Source: Turneriella parva DSM 21527 (GTDB lineage: Bacteria > Spirochaetota > Leptospiria > Turneriellales > Turneriellaceae). Taken from it: a stretch of DNA of 64,000 bases. The position numbers and the translations under genes were made by a program. The DNA lies in assembly GCF_000266885.1 (NCBI RefSeq), contig NC_018020.1, forward strand, positions 4,320,016 to 4,384,015. Direction: 5' to 3'. Shown piece after piece: positions 37,798-44,746 of the stretch. Within the stretch, counting starts at the first letter, position 1. Each line of letters begins with the position of its first letter. The notes beneath the pieces were generated by a model. The model was not told the DNA's origin. It saw only the letters and a list, made by a program, of their open reading frames with translations, and ran no database searches.

Positions 37798-38451
37798 ATG
37801 GTACGGTCGGCGGCCTTCGCGGGCATTATTTTCGGCCTCAGCGCTGCCTTGTCGATTACCACGGCCAACGGCACAGACGAGACAGCGTTACCTGCGCTCG
37901 GGATAGATCCCCACCTGAACCCGTTGCCAGCCGAAGTTCTGGCTTTCCCCTCTTTTACAGAGAACTATCGCACGCGCATTCTTTCGGGTGACTATGAAAT
38001 CTGGTCAGAAGAGAAACTGCAACGCTGGTCGTCTGCCCAGGGCCTTTCGGTAACGACCGACGACCAAGGCGCAGGTCTGCAATACCACCGCGCGGCAATC
38101 ATCAGCCCACCGGGCATCACTTTCACGCTGAAGCGACCAGTGACCGAAAAGGGCAGTGAATTTGCCAATGGCTGGGTCTTGAATCTCGACTTCGCCGCGA
38201 TAAGGGCGCGCAACGGCGAGTCTCTGCAAAAGGCCCGTTCTCTCTACAGCAACCTGTTACAATGTGATGTTATCGTCGACGGCGAGCTCTACACGACCGT
38301 CAGACAGGGCGCGAAAAAATCGATTCAGACACCGCTGCGGCTGCCTATACCCCATATCCGCAGCAACGAGGGAATCGTACGGGTAGAGCTGCGGCTTGCC
38401 AACCACCCGCGCAATTTTCTGTTTCTCTACGACGCTTATTTAACTCGGTAA
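37798..38451 (+). CDS. secreted protein of unknown function
   Basis: A 217-aa protein with a signal peptide (1-24, FGLSAALSITTANG). The mature part starts with a polar stretch, then a beta-rich domain: ISPPGITFTLKRPV, GWVLNLDFAAI, CDVIVDGELYTTVRQG and IVRVELRLANHPRNFLFLYDAYL. The jelly-roll-like pattern could bind carbohydrate, but no signature is present. It is the only + strand gene between ychF and the seven-gene - strand operon, with which it is convergent (10 bp between stops). Confidence 0.65.
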   Translation: MVRSAAFAGIIFGLSAALSITTANGTDETALPALGIDPHLNPLPAEVLAFPSFTENYRTRILSGDYEIWSEEKLQRWSSAQGLSVTTDDQGAGLQYHRAAIISPPGITFTLKRPVTEKGSEFANGWVLNLDFAAIRARNGESLQKARSLYSNLLQCDVIVDGELYTTVRQGAKKSIQTPLRLPIPHIRSNEGIVRVELRLANHPRNFLFLYDAYLTR

Positions 38452-38461
38452 CATTCGTCGG

Positions 38462-39733
38462 CTATTTATCGCCGCTGAAGTGTATCTCGATACCAAGAGT
38501 TGCGAATGCTTCCCATGACGTTCGGGTACTGTGCTCAAAGCCAGCGTATTGTTGGTTCGTGAAACCGTTGTCAGCAAGAAACCCGGTGCGCACAAAACGA
38601 TCGCTGCTGTAAGGGTTAGCTTTCCACCAGTGGCCCTCGTAGCCCACGCCGACAATGATGCCGAAATCGCCGAAGCGCTTCACGTAGAATTCAAGCGCCG
38701 TGTTGAGAATAAATTCGCTCTCGTTAAAGCGCGGCGACCTGGCAAGCTCGGCGAAATAGCTGAGCGCAGGAAAATAAAAGTGGGTACGCAGCCGCACCAT
38801 CGGGTGAAACTGAACATACTGCCGATAAACCACCATCAGCGTTGCGCGCGTCCAGTCGTCATTGCGTGTCGTCAGCCTTACCGGGTCTGAATAATCCTGA
38901 TAATACCAGGCACGAAAGCTGGGCCCGATAGAAGCATCAAACCAGCGAAAGCCACTGCCAAAATTCATGAGATAGTTGAGCGGCGTGAAATGGTAATAGG
39001 TGTTGGCATAGAACATCGTGACTTCAGTCGCCTTGTTGCCAACCGCACCACGCAATTCGGGCGAAATGCCTGCCTTACGCAGATTCTGCGCGCCGGGCGT
39101 GCTGTTCGCCAGAAACAATGCAGATGTATAATCATAGCCCAGGTCGACAGGCACCTCGCTCACACCGGCAGCTGAGGTCTCTTTGTACGTAAAGCGCGAC
39201 GGCTTGTCTTCGTAGCGCTGCGTCTTGAGGCCGATTTCAAAGTCAGTGAAGATACCCTTGTTCGACCGGTAGTAATGAAAGCCTGTTTTGCCATCGTGGT
39301 CGTCTTCTTTGTCTTTGCCCAGGCGAAACGCGAGTTCATAACCCACCATGGTTGTGTAGTCGAATGGCAGTGAATACTCGCGGCTGGTATTAGTCTGCGG
39401 GTTTGTGGTCTTATTGTTGAAGTTGTAGATACCGCCCGACATCGTGAACGTGAACGTGCCCCGCGTCGGGTTCTTGCTCATGTCTTCGTTCTCATATTTG
39501 ACTTCAGGTAGTTTCGCCGAAGTCGGCTTAGGCGCGCTGATTTCTTGCTCTTCTTTGCCCTGAGCGCCAGCCGCATTCTTGAGGGCACCCTGCCCGGGTC
39601 GTGCCTTCGCCGTGGGTTTTGCCGCTGCGGGTTTGGCCGCAGCCGGCTTAGCCTTTTTCTGTGCAAACAGCGCCGACGAGCCAGCGGCGAAAACCAGCAG
39701 AAACGTCGTCGTGATGAATCGGGTCATTTTCAT
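38462..39733 (-). CDS. outer-membrane beta-barrel, last gene of the envelope operon
   Basis: A 423-aa protein with a signal peptide (1-24, ending LFAQ). An Ala/Lys/Pro-rich linker (about 25-75) leads into a barrel-like region with amphipathic strands (FTFTMSGGIYNFN, MVGYELAFRLGK, IFTDFEIGLKTQRYE, WTRATLMVVYRQYVQF, FGIIVGVGYEGHWW). It ends in EIHFSGDK. About 14-16 strands can be counted roughly. It is the distal gene of a seven-gene unit with a 4-bp overlap to the lipoprotein gene upstream, so it is likely part of the same assembly. Confidence 0.7.
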   Translation of the reverse strand: MKMTRFITTTFLLVFAAGSSALFAQKKAKPAAAKPAAAKPTAKARPGQGALKNAAGAQGKEEQEISAPKPTSAKLPEVKYENEDMSKNPTRGTFTFTMSGGIYNFNNKTTNPQTNTSREYSLPFDYTTMVGYELAFRLGKDKEDDHDGKTGFHYYRSNKGIFTDFEIGLKTQRYEDKPSRFTYKETSAAGVSEVPVDLGYDYTSALFLANSTPGAQNLRKAGISPELRGAVGNKATEVTMFYANTYYHFTPLNYLMNFGSGFRWFDASIGPSFRAWYYQDYSDPVRLTTRNDDWTRATLMVVYRQYVQFHPMVRLRTHFYFPALSYFAELARSPRFNESEFILNTALEFYVKRFGDFGIIVGVGYEGHWWKANPYSSDRFVRTGFLADNGFTNQQYAGFEHSTRTSWEAFATLGIEIHFSGDK

Positions 39734-40236
39734 TGTATTACCACAAAGTTAGAGTAGATCGTTCCGGTTGTCGTCAGGTCAGACTTATCGGTAAACCGGT
39801 AATTGAACTGCACGATGAAAGCACCCTTGTTCGACGGATTTACCGCATCGCAAGTGCCCGCAAAACTATCACCCGCTGCTGCAATTGTACAGGTGCCGAC
39901 CGCCGCAAAACTACCGCTGAGCCCTGAGCCATTTTTTACCGCGTTGATATCTGTCGCGCCGGGGCTCGCTGCGCTGCGAAAAATCTGCGCCGAACCATTG
40001 ATCTTCAGTTTCTCGGTGCTGAGCTCGCCTTGCGTTGAGTGAAACACATTCGACCAGGTTAGTGCCGTGTTGCCGTTCGCCTTCTCTTCGGCGGTCAGAA
40101 CGACGCGAAAGTTGCCGCTGTCGAAAATGCGGTCGAGAGGGTTTTCATGGCGCATCTTGACCTCGGTGTTATCGCAGGCAAATAGAGACACGACCATTGC
40201 CGCAACCAACAGGCGGCGCATTGAGCACATCACCAT
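39730..40236 (-). CDS. lipoprotein of the envelope operon
   Basis: A 168-aa lipoprotein. The ATG at 40236 follows a GAGG ribosome-binding site; ATGs at 40230 and 40221 are alternatives. The lipobox is LFAC. The mature domain has strand-rich segments (NFRVVLTAEEKANGNTALTW, LKINGSAQIFRSA, GAFIVQFNYRFTDK) and one Cys pair (GTCTIAAAGDSFAGTCD) that could form a disulfide. Function unknown. It overlaps both neighbours (7 bp upstream, 4 bp downstream), so translation is coupled within the operon. Confidence 0.65.
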   Translation of the reverse strand: MVMCSMRRLLVAAMVVSLFACDNTEVKMRHENPLDRIFDSGNFRVVLTAEEKANGNTALTWSNVFHSTQGELSTEKLKINGSAQIFRSAASPGATDINAVKNGSGLSGSFAAVGTCTIAAAGDSFAGTCDAVNPSNKGAFIVQFNYRFTDKSDLTTTGTIYSNFVVIQ

Positions 40237-41087
40237 TTTGGCCTCGTATTCTGCATCATGAAGCGCTGAAAGAAGGATATATCGGGTTCATAGTTCAATT
40301 TACCCTTAAAGTATTTCTGGTGAACCTGATACAAAACGTCATCGGCCCTTTCGCGGTCTTCAAAAGCCTCCCAGACAGAATATGCCCAGGTTAATGCACC
40401 GATCACATACATCGTACGCGCCACCTCTTGGTGATCGCGCATCTCTTTGTACTTGCGCTCGGCTTCGGCAGAATTGGTAGCGCTCTTGTACTCATCGCGG
40501 GCGCCGGCTACTTTGGTTTCGCGTGAATAGCCATAACCGATTGAACCGTAAGTAATCAACGCCATGGCCGTACCGGTGACGTAATTCTTGTTATAGATCT
40601 GCCCCCAGCCCGAGAGCACGATCGAACGAATGCAGGCGCCTTCGGCCGTTTTCATGATCTCTGTTGTGAAAAAATCGAGGTCAAAGTAACTCACCGTCAC
40701 AGTGCAATCCATGACGGCGACATGAAACGGGTTGAAGTCGAAGCCGTGGTCCCATTTGGGCTCATTGCAGCGCGCCTCGTCGATGACCTTGGCATTCACA
40801 TCGGCGATCAGCTGTTCGTTCGTCAGTACGAAATCTTTGGTTTCGGTAATCATGTGGCGAAAGCTCGACACTGACCTTTCGAGCGCCTTGCGGTGCGCAT
40901 CGATCTTTGCATTCTGAATTGCAATCTCTTTAGACCGGCCCTTACCAATTGCGTCGCGCACGCGCACGTTCTTCTGCGTCGAAAAATATTCTTTGTCGAG
41001 GCCCAGATCGACATTCTTTTTCGGCGCCGCCGCGAGCGTACCCGCAACAGTGAGCGTCAGCGCTGCAAAACGGATTACATGCCGCAT
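40230..41087 (-). CDS. FlgT-N/LPP20-like domain protein with GWGQIYN membrane segment (paralog 2)
   Basis: A 285-aa exported protein. After a signal peptide (1-20), residues about 40-140 match the FlgT-N/LPP20 pattern: GRSKEIAIQNAKIDAHRKAL, then ETKDFVLTNEQLIADVNAKV and DCTVTVSYFDLD. Then comes a hydrophobic stretch beginning SGWGQIYNKNYVTGTAMALI and a second one (TMYVIGALTWAYSVW). The GWGQIYN segment resembles DUF5683-like proteins found in envelope clusters. It is paralogous to its upstream neighbour, which has the same order of parts. In other bacteria FlgT-like domains build rings around secretion or flagellar channels at the outer membrane; here no flagellar genes are near. Confidence 0.65.
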   Translation of the reverse strand: MRHVIRFAALTLTVAGTLAAAPKKNVDLGLDKEYFSTQKNVRVRDAIGKGRSKEIAIQNAKIDAHRKALERSVSSFRHMITETKDFVLTNEQLIADVNAKVIDEARCNEPKWDHGFDFNPFHVAVMDCTVTVSYFDLDFFTTEIMKTAEGACIRSIVLSGWGQIYNKNYVTGTAMALITYGSIGYGYSRETKVAGARDEYKSATNSAEAERKYKEMRDHQEVARTMYVIGALTWAYSVWEAFEDRERADDVLYQVHQKYFKGKLNYEPDISFFQRFMMQNTRPKW

Positions 41088-41878
41088 GAGAAACCTCCGC
41101 CGAAGCTGCAGGTAAACAGAACAAAGTCAAATTTGATACCGCGTTCAGTCAATGGCACATATTCGTGCTGCACGTCCATGCGGTATGCCTGCCGCAGATT
41201 CTCAAGACCACGGCGGCCCATGATGCGCGAAGTTGCAGCTTCTGAGACGTTGAAGCTCCACAAAATGAGCGCCGGTATCTGAAAGTTCAGAGCCGCATTG
41301 GTCAGGTCGTCGGGGCTGTTGGCGTTTTTCGCTGCCTGAATAAACATGACATAGAAAGTCCAAAATGCTGTGCCGTAAAGAATGCTGGTGGTGTACTGAC
41401 GGTTATAAATCTGTCCCCAGCCTGGCACAGCCATCGAGCGGTAGGTCGCTCCAGTAATGGTCTTTTCGTAGTCTTCGGTGAACTTCGGCACGTCGATGTA
41501 GTCAACCTGCATGTCAACATTCATGCTGACACGAATCGGCTCACCGGGTGGGCGCCAAAAACGGTACTTCTTGACCTGCAGATCGGTGACCTGCAGGTGC
41601 GCTTCTTTTTTCACCCAACTGTCTTGCAGTACAAAATCTTTCGTGCGGCTGGCGCCGATAAGTTCTGATTCGCCGAGACTTTGCCCGGTTTTCATTGCCG
41701 CCTCAACGGCATTGTTGAAGGCTTCGACCGGGTCTTCTTTGAGACTTTCGCCGACTGCATCTTCTTCGGTGATTTTGATGCGAAAGCTGTTCGTGTATTC
41801 ACCGGCATACACGGTGCCGCCCGCAATGAGCAGCAGCGCGAAAGCGGCAAAAAGAATTGGGGATATATAGTGTTTCAT
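41075..41878 (-). CDS. FlgT-N/LPP20-like domain protein with GWGQIYN membrane segment (paralog 1)
   Basis: A 267-aa exported protein; the start is ATG 41878 because a signal peptide follows (ISPILFAAFALLLIAGG). The frame is open further upstream but overlaps the previous gene. Residues about 30-130 again show an FlgT-N-like layout (EAFNNAVEAAMKTGQSLGE, SRTKDFVLQDSWVKKEAHLQVTDLQV, VSMNVDMQVDYIDV). Then come MAVPGWGQIYNRQYTTSILYG, a hydrophobic segment, and a second one (QIPALILWSFNVSEAA). The C-terminus is Cys- and Gly-containing (CSFGGGFSCGM). It overlaps paralog 2 by 13 bp. The tandem suggests a hetero-oligomer or a recent duplication with divergence. Confidence 0.65.
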   Translation of the reverse strand: MKHYISPILFAAFALLLIAGGTVYAGEYTNSFRIKITEEDAVGESLKEDPVEAFNNAVEAAMKTGQSLGESELIGASRTKDFVLQDSWVKKEAHLQVTDLQVKKYRFWRPPGEPIRVSMNVDMQVDYIDVPKFTEDYEKTITGATYRSMAVPGWGQIYNRQYTTSILYGTAFWTFYVMFIQAAKNANSPDDLTNAALNFQIPALILWSFNVSEAATSRIMGRRGLENLRQAYRMDVQHEYVPLTERGIKFDFVLFTCSFGGGFSCGM

Positions 41879-41879
41879 G

Positions 41880-42479
41880 CTATTTCCACTCCACGGGTGC
41901 CCACATGTAGCCGGCACGGTATTCGGTTTCCCAGTTGAGTTGGCCCGGGTGACCGATAAACAAGACTGTCGAGGTAAAGCCCCAAAGTTCTGCGCCGATC
42001 TGGCCATAGACACCCCATCGGTCATAGACTGCCTGGTTATAGCGCAGGTTCATACCAAAGCCGAAGTGCATCTTGAGATAGAACGGCGTATACGTACGAA
42101 AGAGTATACCGGGGTAACTCGAGTATACCCACTGCCGGTCACCGGGGTATGTCTTGCCCGGGTTGTACTGCGGCGATGCATCGAAGTCGATGTAATAATA
42201 GAAGAATTTGTGACCATTCCACTGTGAATCGAGACCTGAATTGATGAGCAGACCGCCGCCGCCGCCCACCTGATTGAAGAAGCTGGCATCGCTCTGGCGA
42301 TCGAGCCCGCGCGATGTCTTGTTAAAAAACACCCAGGGTATCACCTTCGCCGGCTCATGGTGAAACTCGGTCGCTGGCAGATTTTCGCGCGGCTGCTTGA
42401 TCTGCGGGCCGCGCGAGCGGCAATTCGCCGCGACCACGAGCACCAGCGCGGGAATCAAATAACGAAGTTGCTGCCTCAT
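41880..42479 (-). CDS. lipidated barrel-like protein of the envelope operon
   Basis: A 199-aa protein whose signal peptide ends in the lipobox-like VAANC (C20). The rest is Tyr/Trp/Gly-rich with strand alternation (GHKFFYYYIDFD, FYLKMHFGFGMNLRYN, GVYGQIGAELWGFTSTVLFIG, NWETEYRAGYMW), suggesting a small barrel or outer-membrane-associated beta domain. It overlaps the upstream gene by 4 bp (ATGA) and has one base before the next start. No family is recognised. Confidence 0.6.
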   Translation of the reverse strand: MRQQLRYLIPALVLVVAANCRSRGPQIKQPRENLPATEFHHEPAKVIPWVFFNKTSRGLDRQSDASFFNQVGGGGGLLINSGLDSQWNGHKFFYYYIDFDASPQYNPGKTYPGDRQWVYSSYPGILFRTYTPFYLKMHFGFGMNLRYNQAVYDRWGVYGQIGAELWGFTSTVLFIGHPGQLNWETEYRAGYMWAPVEWK

Positions 42480-42979
42480 ATGTTTAACAACCGGAATGCG
42501 TATTTGAAACCTACTGCGACCGACGTGCCCGTCGGATAGCGATAGTTTTCGGCATTGTTATCCATGTATCTGAACTGGTAAAAGATGCGCCAGTTTTCTG
42601 AGAAGAAAAAGTCCATACCAGCGGCGAAGTGGTAGGCATAGGTTTTGGGCAACCACGGCATTATACCGCCGCCGACAAAAAGACTCATTTTGTCGGTACG
42701 GATAAAGTGAAAGTAGCCAGAGAATGCCACGAAAAACAGGCGGTAGTTGTCACCGAGATAGCCTGCAGATGAAGTGCTGCCTGAGAAATATTCAGGGGCA
42801 ACAAAACCCTCGATTTCGGCGTCAAAGCGCTTGTTTGACGTAAAGAGACCGAACCCCATAAAGCTCGTCTCTTTAGAGTTCATATATTCAAACTTGCCGC
42901 CACCGAACTCGACAGCCGACAGCGCGCCGGCCCCGGTGATGAACAGCAGCAGAATCAACAGCTGGCTAAACTTTCGCAT
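42476..42979 (-). CDS. small outer-membrane barrel-like protein of the envelope operon
   Basis: A 167-aa protein with a signal peptide (1-22, ending LSAVE). The mature part has about eight amphipathic strands (KRFDAEIEGFVAPEYF, YRLFFVAFSGYFHFI, MSLFVGGGIMPWLP, WRIFYQFRYMDN, TSVAVGFKYAFRL), consistent with an eight-stranded OmpA/OmpW-sized barrel. Its start codon abuts the stop of the PorV-like gene upstream. Function unknown; by context it belongs to the same envelope assembly. Confidence 0.65.
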   Translation of the reverse strand: MRKFSQLLILLLFITGAGALSAVEFGGGKFEYMNSKETSFMGFGLFTSNKRFDAEIEGFVAPEYFSGSTSSAGYLGDNYRLFFVAFSGYFHFIRTDKMSLFVGGGIMPWLPKTYAYHFAAGMDFFFSENWRIFYQFRYMDNNAENYRYPTGTSVAVGFKYAFRLLNI

Positions 42980-44746
42980 TTATTTGAGCTCCTCAAGCAG
43001 CGCCTTGTGTTCTTTTTCAAACTGTGCGGTCGCGCGCTGAATAAACTGCAGCTCTTGCGCGTCACTGCCGACAACATCGCTCTGGGCAGAGATTCCCGTA
43101 CCACCGCGGCGGTAATACAGCGTCACGAGTTTCAGTTCGCCGTCGTTACCATCGATATAGAGTTTGTTGAAAACGATCAGATCGGCACCGAGCGCCTGCT
43201 GCATACGTTTCAGGTAAACACTCTCGAGTTCGCCATCGTTACGCTTGGGCGCAGCGAGCATTTTGTTCGCGTTGATGAGCCGCCCTGCTCCGCCTTTGTT
43301 GACTTCGATGAGAAAGTTACCCCGCAGCTTTTCTTTCAGCGACGGATTCTTCACACGACCACTGACGACTTCGATGTCGACCGGGAATATGGCTACAATG
43401 TATTTGCCGACAATATTCTCAGGCTTTGGCCGCGGGGGAACTTTCGTGGGTTTTCCCGGAGTTGGTGCGGGCTCAGCAGGCTGATCGCTCGGCGCAACAT
43501 CGAGTGACGCGGTCTGTGTGCCCGTTGTCGCGGCGGCGAGCGATGCATCATAGCCGACCGTTTCGTTCGTGAGGCTCGTGACGCTGTCGGCGATAATTTC
43601 ACGCGGAGCCAGTTCGCGCGCAAAACGGTAGCGGTGTGTATAACGCTCTGTGAATTTGATCGGCGTCGCGCGGCCGTGTTCGTCGGTTTCGACGCTTTCG
43701 AATGAGTGGTGAAAGGCAAAACGATGGTACGTCGAATTTGGTTTGTTGAAGTTGACCCCGAACCCGTCGGGATACTCTTTTGCAGCGGCGTACTCGAAAG
43801 AGAGCTTCGAGCTCTGCACGGTTTCGCCGAAGCCAATACCCCAGTGAATTGATTTGAACGCCTCGCCGCTACCCGATTGGGTCACCCCACCACGCAGCGC
43901 CAGAAAATGCACCGGCCAGTATTCAAACCCATAACGCATGCGCGTCGGCGCGCTCATCGAATTTACGGCATCGACGTTCAGCATGAATTTGTAAGGGAAA
44001 TGCATGCTGACACCTGCATTGTATTCTTCGCGGTTTTCGCTGCGCGAGACTTCGTTATCGAGCTTTAACAACGGGTGCAGGTTACGCGCCGTAAAACCAC
44101 CCGAAAGGCGCGGCATCCAACGGAGTGATTCGCTGTAATGGGCCGGGTCAAACGTACCGAGCAGCGAGGCGTCGAAAAAGAGGCCTTTTTGCTGGCGGGC
44201 GTATGTCGCGCCTTGCGCAGCATCATTAAAATCAGCGCCGAACCATTTCATGGTGATACCGCCGTGCAGGCGGCGCTTTAATATCGGCGCGCCATAAGAG
44301 AGTGCGGTGATGTAAGAATACTTGTTGCGATCGGGCAGCACGTTCACGCCCTTTTCAACGTATTGATTATCTTGCGCGCGGTTGAAAACCCCGGTGACGC
44401 CTATCGTGCCATAGGGTAGCGGTAAAGCCGCCATGAATGAGTGGCCTGCAACGTCATTGGTCGCGCCGTGGTATGAGAGTGAGTACTCCGCATAGTGAAG
44501 CGTACTGAGCGCCGCAGGGTTGTAATAAAGAGCAGAAAGATCGTTCGCATTACCCGTCTGCGCCATGCCCATGCCGTATGAACGCACGCCCAAAGGCGTA
44601 TTCAGCGCCGATTCTGCCGAAAGCGTCGGCACCGAGGCACCATCAAATTTCGTCGCCAATGCCGGTGTTGTGGCCAGGACAGCAAGAAGCGCGGCAGCGA
44701 GCGCGCGAACCAGGGTGGCTGTTTTCAGCAATCTCTTCTGTATCAA
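42980..44746 (-). CDS. PorV/UPF0164-like barrel with C-terminal FlgO/CsgG-like domain
   Basis: A 588-aa protein, first of the seven-gene operon, from a TTG start with a GGAG site 6 nt upstream. The signal peptide covers 1-31. Residues 53-80 (VRSYGMGMAQTGNANDLSAL, YYNPAAL) are the FadL/PorV/UPF0164 signature. The barrel runs to about 370 and is followed by a Pro-rich linker (about 420-446). Residues 447-588 (KYIVAIFPVDIEV, RLINANKMLAA, ALGADLIVFNKLYIDG) resemble the nucleotide-less anticodon-binding-like fold of FlgO, CsgG and TolB-N. In family terms this would place a secretion- or ring-related domain in the periplasm, tethered to an outer-membrane barrel. The combination is new to me. Confidence 0.7.
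   Translation of the reverse strand: MIQKRLLKTATLVRALAAALLAVLATTPALATKFDGASVPTLSAESALNTPLGVRSYGMGMAQTGNANDLSALYYNPAALSTLHYAEYSLSYHGATNDVAGHSFMAALPLPYGTIGVTGVFNRAQDNQYVEKGVNVLPDRNKYSYITALSYGAPILKRRLHGGITMKWFGADFNDAAQGATYARQQKGLFFDASLLGTFDPAHYSESLRWMPRLSGGFTARNLHPLLKLDNEVSRSENREEYNAGVSMHFPYKFMLNVDAVNSMSAPTRMRYGFEYWPVHFLALRGGVTQSGSGEAFKSIHWGIGFGETVQSSKLSFEYAAAKEYPDGFGVNFNKPNSTYHRFAFHHSFESVETDEHGRATPIKFTERYTHRYRFARELAPREIIADSVTSLTNETVGYDASLAAATTGTQTASLDVAPSDQPAEPAPTPGKPTKVPPRPKPENIVGKYIVAIFPVDIEVVSGRVKNPSLKEKLRGNFLIEVNKGGAGRLINANKMLAAPKRNDGELESVYLKRMQQALGADLIVFNKLYIDGNDGELKLVTLYYRRGGTGISAQSDVVGSDAQELQFIQRATAQFEKEHKALLEELK

Follow-up and report, generated by a model that had tools for sequence, protein, structure and literature searches.

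Seven consecutive minus-strand genes near the end of the Turneriella parva DSM 21527 chromosome, here called g1 to g7, probably encode one envelope-spanning complex arranged around a PorV/FadL-type outer-membrane barrel. They run from position 44746 down to 38462 of the analysed window, a stretch of 64,000 nucleotides that forms the terminal 64 kb of the 4.384 Mb chromosome (the assembly holds a second small contig). Each product begins with a hydrophobic signal sequence, so that all seven carry an export signal, and the spacings from g1 to g7 are 0, −4, +1, −13, −7 and −4 bp. An earlier sequence-only reading had placed seven coupled genes at these same positions, with overlaps of 13, 7 and 4 bp and gaps of 0-1 bp, and had taken them for a trans-envelope complex. 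The recomputed spacings agree with the former, and the all-exported, tightly coupled and deeply conserved gene set supports the latter. From gene order, its conservation, a predicted barrel fold and domain homologies, we infer a physical complex, its topology, its oligomeric nature and its cargo. The parts are of known kinds, whereas their assembly appears to be undescribed: the literature searched, which covered little of the subscription literature, yielded no description of the gene set, and what it offers on the DUF5683 domain of g4 and g5 concerns nematode receptors.

Genomes were sampled for the locus at the family, order, class and phylum level. Every Turneriellaceae genome with sufficient sequence, from five genera in all, has g1-g7 in identical order and strand, a recurrence beyond chance, and the spacings in relatives lie between −37 and +13 bp. 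The Turneriellaceae genomes without the locus are incomplete drafts. In a neighbouring family (f2), g2-g7 follow one another in order, with g1 on a separate contig. The flanking genes are common only within the genus Turneriella and differ in the other genera while the order of g1-g7 is kept; the genes are therefore held together as an operon and not by general synteny. Thus, the genes are not independently scattered in relatives, in keeping with the conserved order that the sequence-only reading had named as support for its proposal. Sampling of further families of the class did not turn up the operon, nor did sampling of other spirochaetes, with the exception of genome G049, the only genome of its spirochaete class in the sample. 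G049 contains homologues of g1-g5 in the same order (98-99.8% in profile-profile comparison). At the g6 position follows a lipoprotein that bears the HxNPxD motif of g6 (23%), and at the g7 position an exported protein (3%) that corresponds by position and is a candidate homologue; the counterparts of g6 and g7 are thus recognised mainly by position. Next comes a relative of g8 (98%), a gene described below. The paralogues g4 and g5 stand in tandem at every locus. Lateral transfer and vertical descent with many losses both fit this distribution and cannot be told apart.

The AlphaFold2 model of g1 (predicted local distance difference test score, pLDDT, 72) comprises an N-terminal hatch with a YNPA motif, 14 strands, a disordered linker and a C-terminal domain (residues 449-588, pLDDT mostly 65-89). 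Compared by VIA-align, the predicted barrel is structurally closest to PorV of the type IX secretion system (T9SS; Z 30.0 and 29.5, root-mean-square deviation 3.8 over 292 residues), then to the FadL group (FadL/TodX/TbuX, Z 25-28) and then to BamG (24-25), with OmpG at about 18. The PorV family profile NF033709 was matched by all ten Turneriellaceae g1 members (best E 5.4e-16). T. parva g1 scored 51.4 bits (E 1.2e-13), under the cut-off of 90, and the G049 relative passed it with 97.7 bits. For Pfam FadL (PF03349), 13.5 bits were obtained and the gathering score of 29.7 was not reached. The NPA hatch motif of g1 is conserved, and among g1, g2, g3 and g7 an amphipathic-strand count gave clear barrel support for g1 alone. 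Fold matches and the NF033709 match thus bear out the PorV/UPF0164-like barrel proposed for the first gene. The proposed FlgO/CsgG/TolB-N-like C-terminus stands in part. In an hhalign comparison of twelve profiles, in which unrelated domain pairs gave at most 2.3%, it matched spirochaete FlgO domains at 92% (E 5.9e-7, 94 columns), which indicates remote FlgO homology, but the curated cut-off was not reached: no g1 member matched PF17680, and g1 was not among the FlgO matches listed in a scan of spirochaete genomes. Since the domain is missing from G049 g1, it is an addition and not part of the core.

UPF0164/PorV genes of other spirochaetes (loci L153-L159) were considered as relatives of the operon and rejected, their neighbours being unrelated. 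At L153, L154, L155, L157 and L158, a 400-aa PorV/UPF0164-type gene sits in a different recurring neighbourhood with an RNase PH-like gene, an MDASVNRI protein, a SecA-like gene and a short exported protein. Genome G016 encodes a 541-aa PorV-family protein (L048:5733-7358; 88.6 bits against the cut-off of 90), its gene lying directly downstream of that for a very large repeat protein (L048:7377-11063); the two are possibly a PorV-type pair without g2-g7.

The g4 and g5 proteins are paralogous over both halves (hhalign, N-terminal half 79.5%, hairpin 96.6%), and g5 is the best-conserved member of the operon, with 11 relatives in the genome contigs searched. Profile-profile comparison of the N-terminal half with FlgT-N gave 69% for g5 (E 4.5e-5), 19% for g4 and 83% for G049 g4. 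The FlgT-N/LPP20-like domain ascribed to these paralogues by the sequence-only reading thus holds as remote homology, but not by the curated FlgT_N profile (PF16548), whose gathering score of 28.8 was not reached and to which one of 12 g5 members matched at E 0.12. The middle and C-terminal domains of FlgT were not found in either protein. The remainder is a DUF5683 hairpin (PF18935, gathering score 26.7), which scored 30.7 bits in g4 and, in g5, 26.0 bits as a protein, just below the threshold, and 26.7 in the genome scan. The hydrophobic segments with a conserved GWGQIYN motif noted before in the tandem paralogues are thereby explained, as GWGQxYN is the DUF5683 motif. The SHS2 fold is common to FlgP, FlgT, Lpp20 and dodecin, some of which form rings (PMC12222027); since these relatives include ring formers, we may reasonably infer a ring or oligomer of g4/g5. 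A fold search with the g5 model, which returned only helical hairpins and dodecin (Z about 6), was too weak to be used as proof, and the search of solved structures by sequence profile gave nothing credible; a weak match of g4 to 4bwr (E 0.0037) was left unused.

The DUF5683 hairpin module is common in spirochaetes, and g4 and g5 match the LIC11435 family over this part only. Another T. parva protein, a relative of the Leptospira LIC11435 family (L112:7674-8735), has a weak FlgO-like domain (E 0.011) followed by the same hairpin. DUF5683 would thus appear to serve generally as a modular membrane anchor for periplasmic domains of the FlgT-N-like and FlgO-like kinds. The T. parva DUF5683 loci L112 and L113 were ruled out as copies of the operon. 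We also observed a paralogous family of very large lipoproteins of about 2000 aa (L112:8866-14784, L112:14917-17001, L232:916-7257 and L232:11521-17910) with the common start CSFLKLDxxTNCLN, about 2.23-2.26 Mb into the chromosome.

Remote FlgO and FlgT-N homology in g1, g4 and g5, together with the ability of the SHS2 fold to build rings in FlgP and FlgT (PMC12222027), could speak for an outer-membrane or periplasmic flagellar ring of the Vibrio H/T-ring type that had been modified to suit spirochaete flagella. We consider this highly improbable. The reading is unsupported because no curated FlgO or FlgT_N cut-off is reached by g1, g4 or g5, no flagellar gene occurs among the ten scanned neighbours and the distant G049 g1 has no FlgO domain. 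Moreover, T. parva has a separate FlgT-like gene elsewhere in its genome (L197), and FlgO and FlgT-N domains occur widely, and separately, in spirochaetes outside the locus. The sequence-only reading had already remarked that no flagellar gene is near, and the annotated T. parva neighbours of the operon are indeed housekeeping genes.

The remaining four products are those of g2, g3, g6 and g7. The g2 protein is conserved at all loci and has a weak DUF481 match (0.017), and the barrel pattern of g2 and g3 is not significant alone. For g7, no family match was obtained in the scans, and its amphipathic-strand excess was equalled in 48 of 500 shuffles, a weak support for a barrel. Cys20 of g3 is invariant in Turneriellales, the G049 relative having no such cysteine; g6 keeps its lipidation cysteine in relatives at a poor identity of 20-46%. 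Consequently, of the further barrels and lipoproteins predicted earlier, the lipoprotein g6 stands and g3 has a lipidation cysteine, whereas g2, g3 and g7 are probable barrels as judged from composition and pattern. Their resemblance to ordinary small barrels and the poor conservation of g6 would suit a group of co-regulated outer-membrane proteins without a common complex. That explanation is nevertheless quite unlikely, given that strict order and overlaps persist over class-level divergence despite changing flanks and that g4 and g5 are always in tandem. Among the seven proteins, family-library scans found no match to an enzyme or ATPase family.

In relatives the locus is longer, which the sequence-only reading did not notice. 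Downstream of g7, f2 and the four remaining Turneriellaceae genera carry a YidD-like gene for an exported protein (Pfam PF01809, E 1e-19 to 1e-22) and then g8, whose exported product has tetratricopeptide repeats (TPRs) and a C-terminal hairpin with the motif FPGxGHxYLGQ. A further gene, g9, encodes a PD40-CRD-OmpA protein and lies convergently beside the locus in all five genomes with enough flank; its best NCBIfam matches are T9SS PorE (1e-50) and the CHU_0125 outer-membrane integrity family. PorE of Porphyromonas consists of TPR, propeller, CRD and OmpA_C (PMC7192894), so that g8 and g9 jointly carry the same domain set. The YidD-like gene, g8 and the PorE-like gene therefore point to outer-membrane complexes of the PorV/PorE type, not to flagella. 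In genome G004, g7 and the exported YidD-like gene share one frame of 489 aa (L061:11358-12827), which may reflect a gene fusion or a stop codon lost through misassembly.

Does the locus then specify a true type IX secretion system? A PorV-type barrel and a PorE-like neighbour would fit, as would the gene immediately before g1 in G049, whose product combines fn3 with a FlgD_ig/T9SS-sorting-like C-terminal domain (TIGR04183, 22.4 against a cut-off of 23; this match comes from the G049 locus). None of the 13 genomes searched in the family matched the pore protein SprA (PF14349), and the control was equally silent, so that a T9SS pore is neither shown nor excluded, and the other operon members match no T9SS family. 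We did not accept a true T9SS, which is very unlikely indeed.

FadL-family barrels have three known uses, namely uptake of hydrophobic compounds (FadL), shuttling of T9SS cargo (PorV) and insertion of outer-membrane proteins (BamG) (PMC12611786, PMC12578637). Because of the large fixed partner set, the scaffold domains, the YidD protein, the TPR protein and the PorE-like anchor, the protein-handling uses fit better than uptake. By analogy with PorV and with BamG of the Bacteroidota β-barrel assembly machinery (BAM), we tentatively propose that the complex may handle outer-membrane or surface proteins in assembly, holding or export. The g1 barrel would form the outer-membrane core, surrounded by g2, g3, g7 and the lipoprotein g6. 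The SHS2 domains of g4 and g5, probably oligomeric, would constitute a periplasmic scaffold held in a membrane by the DUF5683 hairpins, toward which the FlgO-like tail of g1 might reach in Turneriellales. In the fuller ancestral locus, g8, the exported YidD-like protein and the PorE-like peptidoglycan-binding protein would be part of the same machine.

Uptake of hydrophobic nutrients deserves weight all the same. Here, g1 would be a FadL-type channel for long-chain fatty acids and the other proteins would carry the substrate across the periplasm. Long-chain fatty acids and alcohols serve T. parva as carbon and energy source (PMC3746428). The structures of FadL, TodX and TbuX match g1 well, g1 keeps the NPA hatch motif, and a search of the genome with the g1 profile retrieves g1 alone at E ≤ 1e-8. 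On the other hand, the operon contains no fatty-acid gene, an enoyl-CoA hydratase gene lying 2.5 kb off on the opposite strand, and the other families mentioned above did not yield the operon. Canonical FadL is not known to require a comparable partner set. On balance, we regard uptake as somewhat unlikely.

Several observations nevertheless weigh against protein handling by a joint complex, among them the growth substrate of T. parva, the single match to the g1 profile in the genome and the negative SprA search with its silent control. Interaction of the operon products is deduced at the gene level; PorV leads FadL by a margin of about 1.6 to 4 Z units, which is not enough to assign function; and confidence in the g5 model is low. 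The g9 protein matches CHU_0125 as well as PorE, and its gene is convergent and outside the operon; in T. parva it is isolated, at about 235 kb of the chromosome. Within the genus Turneriella the locus yielded neither the YidD-like gene nor g8, and neither turned up in the approximately 39% of the T. parva genome that was read. More specifically, but with less likelihood than uptake, the genes could represent an unrecognised spirochaete machine for outer-membrane protein assembly or export, in which a PorV/FadL barrel without SprA joins the g4/g5 scaffold, a TPR-hairpin protein, an exported YidD and a PorE-like anchor; it would predate Turneriellales and have been cut down to seven genes in Turneriella. 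Little is known of how the spirochaete outer membrane is built and populated, and the barrel family concerned is used by both T9SS (PorV) and BAM (BamG). An exported set of eight or nine proteins, kept in fixed order over class-level distance, offers a concrete and testable candidate.

The features of the operon are listed below. The reading frame of g4 was listed from 42025, but its proper start is 41878, as relatives align only from there. No Rfam RNA was found at the locus; promoter-like matches were rarer than in shuffled sequence and terminator-like matches were uninformative. The ten flanking genes scanned comprise TerC, YchF, MqnC/CofH-like, enoyl-CoA hydratase, S49 peptidase and citrate synthase genes and four without a family. 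An exported LIC10729-like protein (E 4e-7) is encoded at 37798-38451, convergent with g7 across a 10 bp gap; its place beside the operon is conserved only within the genus Turneriella.

Features of the g1-g7 operon of T. parva (window positions)
Feature	Position	Strand	Description
g1	42980..44746	-	588 aa, TTG start, signal peptide, PorV/FadL-type outer-membrane barrel (predicted) and FlgO-like C-terminal domain
g1 barrel, residues 84-353	43688..44497	-	14 strands, DSSP of model; fold-match range 41-365
g1 C-terminal periplasmic domain (predicted), residues 449-588	42983..43402	-	FlgO-like, hhalign
g2	42476..42979	-	167 aa, signal peptide, probable small outer-membrane barrel
g3	41880..42479	-	199 aa, lipidation Cys20, C-terminal part barrel-like
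g4	41075..41878	-	267 aa, signal peptide, SHS2/FlgT-N-like periplasmic domain and DUF5683 membrane hairpin
g4 FlgT-N-like domain, about residues 26-135	41474..41803	-	profile-profile comparison
g5	40230..41087	-	285 aa, g4 paralogue
g5 SHS2-type domain, about residues 37-136	40680..40979	-	hhalign to FlgT-N
g5 DUF5683 hairpin, residues 148-245	40353..40646	-	Pfam match, GWGQxYN motif
g6	39730..40236	-	168 aa lipoprotein, Cys21, HxNPxDxxxDxG motif after lipobox
g7	38462..39733	-	423 aa, signal peptide, probable outer-membrane barrel

The operon can be compared with several known systems. With the flagellar ring proteins FlgO, FlgT and FlgP, it shares remote domain homology in g1, g4 and g5, the SHS2 fold being common; in contrast to those proteins, its domains are joined to a barrel or to a DUF5683 hairpin and have no flagellar context. 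The DUF5683/LIC11435 proteins have the PGWGQxYN hairpin of g4 and g5, which differ in the SHS2 domain in front and in their fixed eight-gene neighbourhood. FadL and TodX have the fold and the NPA hatch motif of g1, whereas g1 sits in a multi-gene exported set and scores under the Pfam cut-off. BamG is likewise a FadL-family barrel and works with lipoproteins in the BAM complex, which in Bacteroidota also contains BamD and, in Flavobacterium, BamP; unlike in BAM, no BamA is found beside the g1-g7 locus. As judged from the predicted model, PorV of the T9SS has the same 14-strand barrel with a hatch, but T. parva g1 stays below the family cut-off and carries a FlgO-like tail, and g2-g8 are not known from T9SS. 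A propeller-CRD-OmpA gene resembling T9SS PorE adjoins the locus in five relatives.

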